DNA of 64,000 nucleotides, taken from the NCBI GenBank assembly GCA_029245795.1, contig JAQWOP010000024.1, positions 124,001-188,000 on the forward strand, in the 5' to 3' direction. Every line of letters starts with the position of its first letter. The stretch's first letter is position 1. The notes below the pieces were generated by a model. The model made no database searches. It was not told the origin of the DNA and saw only the letters and a list, made by a program, of their open reading frames with translations. The translations under genes and the position numbers were made by a program. Shown here piece by piece: positions 28,584 to 60,934 of the stretch. Source of the stretch: Hyphomicrobiales bacterium. Lineage in GTDB: Bacteria > Pseudomonadota > Alphaproteobacteria > Rhizobiales > TMED25.

Positions 28584-28772
28584 ATGAGCGGATTATTAAA
28601 TATTATTATTACAATTTCTGTGCTTGCAGTTGCAGTTGTTCTAGTGCTTGGATTAAGCAATATGCTAAAAAAAGGGAGCGCAAATAGATCACAAAAATTA
28701 ATGAGGTTGAGAATTATCTCACAATTTATCGCAATTGTTTTGATAATGATTTTCTTTTATTTTAACTATTAA
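28584..28772 (+). CDS. HIG1-domain-like twin transmembrane protein
   Basis: A 62-residue protein with two hydrophobic segments (about residues 5-26 and 43-61) joined by a basic loop ending in SQKLMRLRIISQF, the pattern of HIG1-domain proteins of alphaproteobacteria. Mitochondrial relatives help assemble or regulate respiratory complexes; the bacterial role is unproven. It immediately precedes the cobalamin adenosyltransferase gene, an arrangement seen repeatedly in alphaproteobacteria together with etfBA. Confidence 0.8.
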   Translation: MSGLLNIIITISVLAVAVVLVLGLSNMLKKGSANRSQKLMRLRIISQFIAIVLIMIFFYFNY

Positions 28773-28786
28773 AGGAACAAAACATA
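28773..28786 (+). promoter_or_regulatory. Ribosome binding site and ATA start codon of the adenosyltransferase
   Basis: AGGA (28773-28776) overlaps the end of the previous gene's stop region and lies seven bases before ATA (28784-28786). The homologous start codon in related proteins is ATG followed by Val, here GTC. Initiation at AUA would be discriminated against by IF3. Confidence 0.6.
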
Positions 28787-29371
28787 GTCATTTTAAACAA
28801 AATATACACTAAGACGGGAGATGATGGATCCACGGCCCTTGGCAGTGGAGAAAGAATATCAAAAAGTTCAAAAAGAGTCTGTGCATACGGCTCTGTTGAT
28901 GAACTTAATTCATTTATAGGTTTGGCAAGGTCTTTTATTGACGATAGTAAGTTAGATTTAATAGATAAAATTCTCTCAAATGTTCAAAATGATCTATTCG
29001 ATCTTGGCGCAGATCTTTGTATACCTGATAATAATAAAAATTTAAATAGCCTTAGAATAGTTGATAGTTATGTAAAAAAACTTGAAAAAAATATAGATCT
29101 ATTAAACAAAGACCTAAAACCATTAAGATCTTTTATTCTCCCGGGCGGAACAAAAATATCCTCATATTTGCATGTGGCTAGAACAATTGCTAGACGATCA
29201 GAAAGGGAAATGATAGAACTTAGTCAAATTAATGAGGAACAAATAAGTAAAGAATCTATTCAATATATTAATAGATTATCCGATTTTTTGTTTGTCGCTG
29301 CAAGATATGTAAACTTGAAACTTAAATTTGAAGATATTCTATGGGTTCCAGGTGATAATTATGAGAAGTAA
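28784..29371 (+). CDS. pduO: Cob(I)yrinic acid a,c-diamide adenosyltransferase, PduO type, with ATA start
   Basis: Makes adenosylcobalamin by transferring the adenosyl group of ATP to cob(I)alamin. From ATA 28784 the frame gives (M)VILNKIYTKTGDDGSTAL, then CAYGSVDELNSF and RSFILPGGTKISSYLHVART (ATP and cobalamin site regions); the total of about 195 residues is normal. An in-frame TAA at 28763 and the absence of ATG, GTG, TTG or CTG before TTG 28922 leave no canonical start, and TTG 28922 would remove the conserved TGDDG ATP loop. AGGA at 28773-28776 is 7 bases from ATA. The gene precedes etfB. Function is secure; the start codon is the unusual part. Confidence 0.85.
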   Translation: MVILNKIYTKTGDDGSTALGSGERISKSSKRVCAYGSVDELNSFIGLARSFIDDSKLDLIDKILSNVQNDLFDLGADLCIPDNNKNLNSLRIVDSYVKKLEKNIDLLNKDLKPLRSFILPGGTKISSYLHVARTIARRSEREMIELSQINEEQISKESIQYINRLSDFLFVAARYVNLKLKFEDILWVPGDNYEK

Positions 29372-54439: not shown

Positions 54440-54982
54440 TTATTTTGGAGCTAAAACCATAATTATTTGTCTACCTTCAAATTTTGGCTGCAATTCTACT
54501 TTTGCTAATTCATCAATATCTAATTTTATTCTATCAAATAGCTTAACACCAAGTTCTGAATGTGACATTTCTCTTCCACGAAACATAAGAGATATTTTGA
54601 CTTTATCACCAAATTCAATGAATTTCTTCATATTCCTTAATTTTACTTCATAGTCGTGTGTATCTATATTGGGACGCATTTTTATTTCCTTTACGCCAAT
54701 AGTTTTTTGTTTCTTTTTGGCTTCAGCCGCTTTTTTTTGAGATTGGTATTTGAATTTACCGTAATCCATAATTTTACATACTGGCAATACAGGATTGGGT
54801 GATATTTCAACTAAATCAAGTTCAAATTTTTCAGCTTCTTCAATTCCTGTTTGAATACTAACCTCACCATAATTTTCACTATTTGGCCCAATCAATCTGA
54901 TATTGTCCGCAATAATTAATTCATTTATACGATGAGCAGCATCAGATTTCTTTTTAGCAAAATCTTCTATTCTTCTAACTAT
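54440..54982 (-). CDS. infC: Translation initiation factor IF-3 with ATA start
   Basis: IF3 discriminates against non-AUG start codons and prevents premature subunit joining. From ATA 54982 the frame gives 180 residues, the length of E. coli IF3: (M)VRRIEDFAKKKSDAAHRINELIIADNIRLIGP, then DLVEISPNPVLPVCKIMDYGKFKYQ, MRPNIDTHDYEVKLRNMKKF, FRGREMSHSELG and EGRQIIMVLAPK. GGAGG (54993-54989) lies six bases before ATA. There is no in-frame ATG, GTG or TTG until the internal TTG at 54895, which would delete the conserved RINELI start. A non-AUG codon is expected for infC (AUU in E. coli), allowing IF3 to repress its own synthesis. Confidence 0.93.
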   Translation of the reverse strand: MVRRIEDFAKKKSDAAHRINELIIADNIRLIGPNSENYGEVSIQTGIEEAEKFELDLVEISPNPVLPVCKIMDYGKFKYQSQKKAAEAKKKQKTIGVKEIKMRPNIDTHDYEVKLRNMKKFIEFGDKVKISLMFRGREMSHSELGVKLFDRIKLDIDELAKVELQPKFEGRQIIMVLAPK

Positions 54983-59043: not shown

Positions 59044-59835
59044 ATGGTTTTGGAAAATTTAATATTACTATCCGTCTTACAAGGAGCTACGGAATTTCTT
59101 CCTGTTAGTTCCTCAGCACATTTAGCTATTGTTAATTTTTTTAGTCAGAATATTAATCAATCTATCTCAGTAGATTTAAGCCTTCATGTTGGTTCATTAT
59201 TAGCTATGATCTTATATTTCTATCGAAATAGGATAACTATACCAATGCAATCATATGAAGAAAGTAAAGATTTTCTCAATAGAACAACAGTACTTTATCT
59301 GATCATCTTGAGTGCGATACCAACATTAATAATTGCATACCTTCTTCTAAATAGTGGAGTTATCAATAGTATACGAGATAATATTAATATTATTGTATGG
59401 TTTAATCTAATTTTTGCCATCTTATTGCTTATCAGTGACCTTATTGGAAAAAAGAAAGTCAATATTTTTAAACAAAAACATATTTATCCTCTTGCGTTAG
59501 TTCAAGCTATCGCATTAGTTCCAGGTGTAAGTAGATCAGGTATATGCCTTACAATGTCTAGATTCTTAGGTTATGGGAGAACGCAGTCCTCTATAATTGC
59601 AGCTATTATGTCTTTCCCACTATTATTAGTAAGCCTCATATATATAATATTTACATTATTTAAAGAGCAGCAAATAGATCTGACAATAACAATTTTAATA
59701 GCTATTGGATTATCATTTTTGACATCCTACATAACACTTAAAATTATCATTGAATATATTGAAAAGATAAAGATATACCCCTTCGTGATTTATAGAGTTT
59801 GTTTGAGTTTAACAATCCTCTATTTTATTAGTTAG
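59044..59835 (+). CDS. uppP: Undecaprenyl-diphosphatase
   Basis: Recycles the lipid carrier for cell-wall synthesis by removing the terminal phosphate of undecaprenyl pyrophosphate. The 263-residue membrane protein (BacA type) has about eight segments and both catalytic motifs: LQGATEFLPVSSSAHL near residue 14 and PGVSRSGI near 160. ATG 59044. TATAAT at 59024-59029 is close to the start and may be the -10 of its promoter. It overlaps the convergent NDUFA9-like gene by 8 bases. Confidence 0.95.
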   Translation: MVLENLILLSVLQGATEFLPVSSSAHLAIVNFFSQNINQSISVDLSLHVGSLLAMILYFYRNRITIPMQSYEESKDFLNRTTVLYLIILSAIPTLIIAYLLLNSGVINSIRDNINIIVWFNLIFAILLLISDLIGKKKVNIFKQKHIYPLALVQAIALVPGVSRSGICLTMSRFLGYGRTQSSIIAAIMSFPLLLVSLIYIIFTLFKEQQIDLTITILIAIGLSFLTSYITLKIIIEYIEKIKIYPFVIYRVCLSLTILYFIS

Positions 59836-60772
59836 AAAACCTTTTTAAATAATTTGGCACTATATTTTTTATTGAAGCAGGTTGAATCATATAATCACCA
59901 AGAGAGCCAATCTTATTATCAGTTAATTTATATAATATATTATCCTGCTTTAATGACTCAACCTGATCAAATGTAATTGGAGGTTTGGGCATAATTTGAA
60001 GAGGAGTAATAAATAATTTAGATATACTAAAAGGAATTGGCAATAATAATCTTTTTTTATTAGTAGTTTTTACTATGAACTCAATAATTTCCTTAAGTGA
60101 ATAAATTTCATTACCACCAATCTCATAAATATTCTTTTTATTGGTATCACTAATATGTCTGACGATCAGTTTGGCTAAATCCTCAACATAAACAGGTTGA
60201 AATTTTGTTTCTCCATAACCTATGAGAGGAAAAATTGGAACAAATGATAATATAGAAGCAAATTGATTAAAGAAATTATCATCATAACCAAAAACAAGAG
60301 AAGGTTTGATTATTGTTGAGTTTTGGTTTTTGGAGAAAACAGCCTCCTCTCCATTAGCCTTACTTCTTAAATATATAGATTTTGATCTTATATCTGAACC
60401 CAAGGCTGATATATGTATAAATCGCTCAACATCCATTTTCTTTGAGAAAGATGCAATCTTTTTTGGCAGTTCTGAATGAATATAATTAAATTTATGCTTA
60501 CGTGTTTGATTCAAGATTCCTATTAAATTAATAACAAAATTTGATCCTTTCAAAAAACTAGATATAGATCCTTCATCGTATATATTAACTTTAACCGCCT
60601 CAACTTGCCCTATATTACCCGATACACGGATATAATTTGCTTGACCAGGATACCTTGTAGCAAACTTTATTCGATAACCTTCTTTTACAAGTTGTCGAAC
60701 TAAATTTCTTCCAATAAACCCCGTTCCTCCAAATATGGATACAATTTTACTACTTTTTGATGGTATGCTGAT
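59828..60772 (-). CDS. NDUFA9-like NAD(P)-binding protein with ATC or ATA start
   Basis: Atypical extended SDR related to the complex I accessory subunit NDUFA9. From 60772 the frame gives about 314 residues: KIVSIFGGTGFIGRNLVRQL (Rossmann motif), VINLIGIL, FIHISALGSD and the YVEDLAKLIV region. The frame upstream of TTG 60553 is open to a TAA at 60775-60773 without ATG, GTG or TTG, and starting at TTG 60553 would delete the entire dinucleotide-binding motif. GGAG (60782-60779) is six bases before ATC 60772 and twelve before ATA 60766. The protein likely helps assemble or stabilise complex I. Function moderate, extent high. Confidence 0.8.
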   Translation of the reverse strand: MSIPSKSSKIVSIFGGTGFIGRNLVRQLVKEGYRIKFATRYPGQANYIRVSGNIGQVEAVKVNIYDEGSISSFLKGSNFVINLIGILNQTRKHKFNYIHSELPKKIASFSKKMDVERFIHISALGSDIRSKSIYLRSKANGEEAVFSKNQNSTIIKPSLVFGYDDNFFNQFASILSFVPIFPLIGYGETKFQPVYVEDLAKLIVRHISDTNKKNIYEIGGNEIYSLKEIIEFIVKTTNKKRLLLPIPFSISKLFITPLQIMPKPPITFDQVESLKQDNILYKLTDNKIGSLGDYMIQPASIKNIVPNYLKRFSN

Positions 60773-60782
60773 TTAATTCTCC
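60770..60782 (-). promoter_or_regulatory. Ribosome binding site and ATC start of the NDUFA9-like gene
   Basis: GGAG on the minus strand (60782-60779) precedes ATC (60772-60770) by six bases; an in-frame TAA sits directly before the ATC. The alternative ATA at 60766 would have a 12-base spacing. No canonical start lies in this stretch. Confidence 0.5.
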
Positions 60783-60934
60783 AATGTATTAATTTTAAAA
60801 AAAATAATCTAATATAATTAAATAGAAATATAATATATATTTATCATAAAAAAATAAAAAAAAAATAGTCTATAGAAACCAGAATATATACTTAAATAAA
60901 TTATTTAAAATAAAAAAAATAAAAAGGAAGAACA

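Follow-up and report, generated by a model that had tools for sequence, protein, structure and literature searches.

Conserved ATA, ATC and ATT start codons in five genes of a marine alphaproteobacterial family, among them a gene for an NDUFA9-like protein with a probably weak, IF3-sensitive start

At which codon does translation of a conserved gene begin if its frame offers no ATG, GTG or TTG ahead of the conserved N-terminus? This question is raised by a gene for an NDUFA9-like protein on a stretch of 64,000 nucleotides, referred to here as the window, which comprises bases 124001-188000 of contig C2 of a genome (G000) of 1.36 Mb in 24 contigs. The sampled part of this genome has a GC content of 32%, and its nearest named relatives are uncultured marine alphaproteobacteria of the OCS116 cluster / 'Rhodobiaceae'. 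A previous sequence-only reading had stated that the frame contains no canonical start codon from a TAA at 60775 to a TTG at 60553, and that a GGAG precedes an ATC at 60772 by six bases. Both statements proved to be exact. The earliest in-frame ATG, GTG or TTG in sequence and translation is TTG 60553, 73 codons into the frame and past the dinucleotide-binding loop, and the GGAG (60782-60779) is located exactly 6 nt ahead of ATC 60772. In the following, ATA, ATC and ATT starts are collectively termed ATH, or AUH in the transcript (H = A, C or U). The coordinates are compiled in Table 1.

Table 1. Features of the NDUFA9-like gene and of two further genes with ATH start codons, given as window positions
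Feature	Position	Strand	Support
NDUFA9-like protein (complex I 39 kDa-type SDR/epimerase), 314 codons from ATC	59828..60772	-	open frame, Epimerase/NmrA Pfam matches, solved NDUFA9 matches, third-position excess 5' of TTG 60553
Proposed NDUFA9-like initiator codon ATC	60770..60772	-	homologous codon ATC/ATT/ATA in 13/13 family genomes
Shine-Dalgarno GGAG, 6 nt 5' of ATC	60779..60782	-	similar motifs (GGAG, GAGG, AGG) in most relatives
In-frame stop TAA directly 5' of ATC	60773..60775	-	sequence and translation
infC (IF3), ATA start 54982-54980, GGAGG 54993-54989 (6 nt upstream)	54440..54982	-	ATA in 14/14 family genomes
PduO-type cob(I)alamin adenosyltransferase, ATA start 28784-28786, AAGGA 28772-28776 (7 nt upstream)	28784..29371	+	ATA/ATC/ATT in 11 family genomes

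The 314-residue product has Pfam matches to Epimerase and NmrA. Its best match is 9g83_P, a solved NAD-dependent epimerase/dehydratase of 330 residues (E 2e-54), and E-values < 1e-40 were obtained with numerous solved mitochondrial NDUFA9 subunits. This similarity to solved subunits covers most of the length, which places the protein in the NDUFA9 / complex I 39 kDa subunit family. The best alignment pairs residue 3 of 9g83_P with residue 7 of the NDUFA9-like protein. Hence, translation would begin close to ATC 60772 rather than at TTG 60553. For the 72 codons from the ATC to this TTG, differences between relatives were counted at first, second and third codon positions, resulting in 7/9/31 for G000 versus G003, 1/2/23 for G001 versus G005, and 4/3/33 for G001 versus G002. 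Since the differences mostly fall on third positions, the 72 codons ahead of TTG 60553, as judged by this comparison, evolve as coding sequence. A true start elsewhere, either upstream via frameshift or reinitiation or downstream at the TTG with a shorter protein, is very improbable, although this TTG is in frame and the frame is open further upstream in some relatives. A product started at the TTG would be devoid of the conserved NAD loop (GGTGFIGR). Directly ahead of the ATC in G000 and of the corresponding ATT in G003 there is an in-frame stop codon, and the roughly 60 nt upstream of ATC 60772 contain no ATG in any of the frames. Furthermore, the same pattern was found in four other genes.

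The NDUFA9-like protein is encoded in all 41 genomes searched. In the 13 genomes of the OCS116-type family with a visible start, the homologous codon is ATC, ATT or ATA and never ATG, GTG or TTG. It is ATC in G000, ATT in G003, G011, G007 and G004, and ATA in six further genomes (G001, G002, G005, G006, G009 and G010). The sister genus (G012, G013) has ATT with an ATA one codon further upstream, and the exact codon is uncertain there. A GGAG, GAGG, AGG or similar motif precedes the start in the family genomes, with only short Shine-Dalgarno matches in some relatives. Among the order relatives with the full locus in view, L016, L018, L019, L020, L023 and L026 start the gene with ATG. From 80 loci in named genomes 6 belong to the family, and the other 74, likewise alphaproteobacterial, all have a canonical codon within reach. 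The relatives do not refute the earlier proposal of a non-canonical start, as no canonical codon was found at this position in 13 of 13 family genomes. Most of the genomes were assembled from metagenomes or single cells, a source of data in which a missing start codon might be caused by a sequencing or assembly error. For the NDUFA9-like gene the probability of such an error is practically negligible, because 13 independent assemblies agree, with proteins sharing 49-81% identity with the G000 protein.

In an audit, all long open reading frames in 0.80 Mb of G000 were compared with 0.79 Mb of G001 and with 0.38-0.39 Mb each of G011 and G012. Genes were selected if the conserved protein extends upstream of the first ATG, GTG or TTG, and these candidates were then inspected. 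The audit comprised 644 conserved genes in G000 and 547 in G001; it covered about 60% of the G000 genome, and the resulting number of ATH genes is a lower bound. After inspection, five genes had an ATH start in every family genome in which they were seen (56 of 56 start codons). These were infC (14/14 genomes with ATH at the homologous codon), the NDUFA9-like gene (13/13), the PduO adenosyltransferase gene (11/11), an acetylornithine deacetylase gene of the argE type (10/10), and the gene of an NlpC/P60 protein (8/8). The ATA starts of infC and the adenosyltransferase gene, which had been named beside the NDUFA9-like gene before, were both confirmed together with their spaced Shine-Dalgarno sequences. 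Other such genes are not absent from the genome, as five conserved ATH-start genes were found in roughly 60% of it. The remaining ATH candidates of the audit were dropped on inspection, being short shadow frames, conserved leaders ahead of an ATG, or frames in which closer reading revealed an ATG. The lpxK candidate of G011 looks truncated and was rejected. Another audit candidate, aroQ of G000, is located at a contig end.

For infC, an ATA, ATC or ATT start also agrees with the sequence of nearly all order relatives, in line with prior knowledge of this gene. The ATH codon of the PduO gene falls exactly on Met1 of the proteins of order relatives (ATG/GTG-V-x-L-N-K-I-Y). For the acetylornithine deacetylase, ATC, ATT or ATA is found in the 10 family genomes, and order relatives have TTG, GTG or ATG nearby; in G002 an in-frame TTG is located five codons 5' of the ATA. 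The start of the NlpC/P60 gene is an ATT following GGTG in the 8 family genomes, and in G001 the first 228 of its 266 codons contain no ATG, GTG or TTG. It is likely that standard gene callers mis-start or truncate these five proteins.

ATH starts are rare in this genome. Only about 1% of the conserved genes, namely the five conserved cases and approximately two sporadic ones out of 644 in G000, use them, and about 99% have canonical starts. The 523 canonical starts of G000 supported by alignment comprise 471 ATG (ninety per cent), 38 TTG and 14 GTG. A Shine-Dalgarno match of at least 4 nt precedes all five ATH genes of G000 but only 240 of the 523 canonical starts, which is expected by chance with a probability of about 0.02. 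Along the family tree, the start codon underwent at least seven third-base changes, all among A, C and T and none to G. This is not significant alone, because G accounts for only 8% at fourfold sites. Between G000 and G001, 11 of 40 TTG or GTG starts are ATG in the other genome and 29 are retained, whereas the five ATH starts are all non-canonical in the other genome as well. Since weak canonical starts are thus also often retained, retention alone is no proof of selection for weakness.

A few further candidates were observed in single genomes. In trpA of G000 (L325) the codon aligned to the TTG of G003 is TTA, and the sole nearby candidate is the preceding ATT. The trpA start is TTG in G001-type genomes (L326-L331). 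Possibly, trpA of G000 has recently switched to an ATH start. A gene for an FAD-dependent monooxygenase in G000 (G000:C2 40611-42266, L114) has no canonical start before the conserved N-terminus and a possible ATA, and its counterpart in G001 has ATG. Likewise, ispH of G011 (G011:C5 84827-85777, L156) lacks a canonical start near the conserved N-terminus and is a candidate for a sporadic ATA, with ATG being the start in G000. These candidates indicate that some ATH starts may be gained and lost, and cases such as trpA of G000 suggest that AUH starts can also arise by drift.

The sequence-only reading had offered two explanations, either relaxed initiation or a set of IF3-sensitive genes with a respiratory accessory protein among them. 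The first of these does not hold up well. If the machinery of the whole family took AUH nearly as well as AUG, ATH starts would drift in, and the sporadic cases (trpA in G000, ispH in G011) agree with this. So do two changes in the machinery. The initiator tRNA (L129, 17027-17103, minus strand) has the anticodon-stem pairs A-U/G-C/G-C instead of three G-C pairs, with A-U as the first pair. Furthermore, in IF3 of the genus of G000 (window 54440-54982) a Met replaces an otherwise conserved Arg adjoining the RGRE loop, presumably R129 according to our own numbering on E. coli IF3 (R129M). However, the same 77-base initiator tRNA is present with 100% identity in six order relatives, in which pduO starts with ATG or GTG where seen, and the tRNA change was therefore rejected as the cause of the ATH starts. 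IF3 R129M is found only in the genus of G000, whereas the sister genus keeps the Arg and has ATH starts as well; hence, it was also rejected as the cause. The residues of IF3 which we take to be relevant for fidelity, including R131, are kept in the family. Neither the initiator tRNA nor IF3 is altered specifically in the lineage, and non-canonical starts are not common genome-wide. ATG accounts for 471 of 523 starts and ATH for about 1% in a genome of 32% GC, where drift favours A or T at third bases. A general relaxation of initiation in the family is therefore unlikely. The 16S 3' end and the uS9 tail were not found in the sampled sequence. RNA structure at the ATH start sites did not exceed that of shuffled sequence, and the promoter scan of the intergenic region gave no excess over chance.

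The second explanation, an IF3-sensitive set, fits all of the evidence including an infC-like layout, with control by IF3 as its conjectural part. The NDUFA9-like gene shares the features of infC-type AUH starts: its true start is not canonical, a Shine-Dalgarno sequence lies at a working distance, and the non-canonical start is conserved in relatives. We consider it fairly probable that it starts at ATC 60772 and belongs to a small conserved set of genes with infC-like weak starts and low, probably IF3-sensitive expression. In this mechanism the ordinary initiator tRNA, charged with fMet, would start translation at the ATC guided by the GGAG, and all five family genes (infC, pduO, NDUFA9-like, argE-type and nlpC/P60) would combine a Shine-Dalgarno match with AUH. 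Initiation at AUH would be possible but inefficient, since IF3 destabilises initiation complexes on codons other than AUG, GUG and UUG. Thus, the five proteins would be kept at low levels and would probably be sensitive to the ratio of IF3 to ribosomes. From the sequence comparisons we infer for the ATH set an N-terminal fMet, low expression, IF3 sensitivity and a benefit to the cell.

Alternatively, AUH may merely fix a low and constant protein level, with variation in IF3 never being large enough to matter. This tuning without regulation is possible but somewhat doubtful. The conservation of ATH and the Shine-Dalgarno matches fit it equally, and the AUU start of S. aureus cvfC1 lowers expression with no dependence on the medium (PMC13009471). 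On the other hand, a weak Shine-Dalgarno sequence or a TTG or GTG start would serve the same purpose and is common here (38 TTG and 14 GTG among the 523 starts), and the ATH genes instead keep a Shine-Dalgarno match together with AUH, like infC.

A stronger version of IF3-sensitive expression is a true AUH regulon, i.e. a conserved, co-regulated set with translation tracking the availability of IF3 and its members encoded within about 80 kb. The five conserved ATH genes are indeed located within approximately 80 kb, at 418-498 kb of G001:C1 (L148-L151, L309), 162-245 kb of G011:C5, and 0.8-84 kb of G003:C1. By chance, five positions drawn at random from the G001 sample would lie that close in about 5 of 10,000 cases (~0.0005), a value that was calculated post hoc. 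Such a regulon is rather doubtful. If true, it would couple initiation capacity with respiration (through an accessory protein of complex I), B12 use, the synthesis of arginine and the turnover of the wall.

To our knowledge, only a handful of genes other than infC have a conserved AUH start. The present set, which comprises at least five genes across a whole family and was obtained solely by comparison, suggests that AUH starts can be stable over long evolution in streamlined ocean bacteria. It also provides concrete material for asking whether IF3 levels regulate genes besides infC. In Mycoplasma, relaxed initiation coincides with an unusual initiator tRNA and changes at IF3 R131. The family resembles it in an initiator tRNA short of one G-C pair and differs in that this tRNA is order-wide, IF3 R131 is intact and the use of ATH is rare. 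In Deinococcus deserti, non-canonical starts in several ordinary genes, a similar situation, were reportedly found by N-terminal proteomics. An AUU, AUC or AUA start of infC is widespread in bacteria. The known autoregulation of this gene is the closest parallel, with an AUH start preceded by a Shine-Dalgarno sequence, and infC itself is among the five genes. Wherever a check is possible, namely for the pduO, NDUFA9-like and argE-type genes, the start in order relatives is canonical, in contrast to infC.

Repression by IF3 is known for non-canonical starts, including the GTC start of Streptomyces sigR, and IF3 also regulates its own gene infC (PMC5472188). In S. aureus, infC, ccpN and citZ with AUA and cvfC1 with AUU carry extended Shine-Dalgarno sequences; the AUA or AUU starts of ccpN, cvfC1 and citZ reduce expression to about 10% of that with AUG, in a medium-dependent manner for ccpN, and different species share the non-canonical starts of ccpN and cvfC1 (PMC13009471). 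Taken together with the infC-like layout, these published cases lead us to expect weak, probably IF3-sensitive initiation at ATC 60772. The sigR gene resembles our set in that a non-canonical start keeps down the expression of a conserved gene which is not infC. Its start is GUC and not AUH, and its benefit arises from the stoichiometry with an anti-sigma factor, a partner of a kind not known for the family set. The S. aureus genes share the pairing of AUA or AUU with a Shine-Dalgarno sequence, conserved for ccpN and cvfC1. They are different genes from another phylum, with extended and very strong Shine-Dalgarno sequences compared to matches of 4-5 nt in G000, where the evidence comes from sequence. 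Hence, the kind of start is already known from infC, S. aureus ccpN and cvfC1, and Streptomyces sigR, and the members found here are new.
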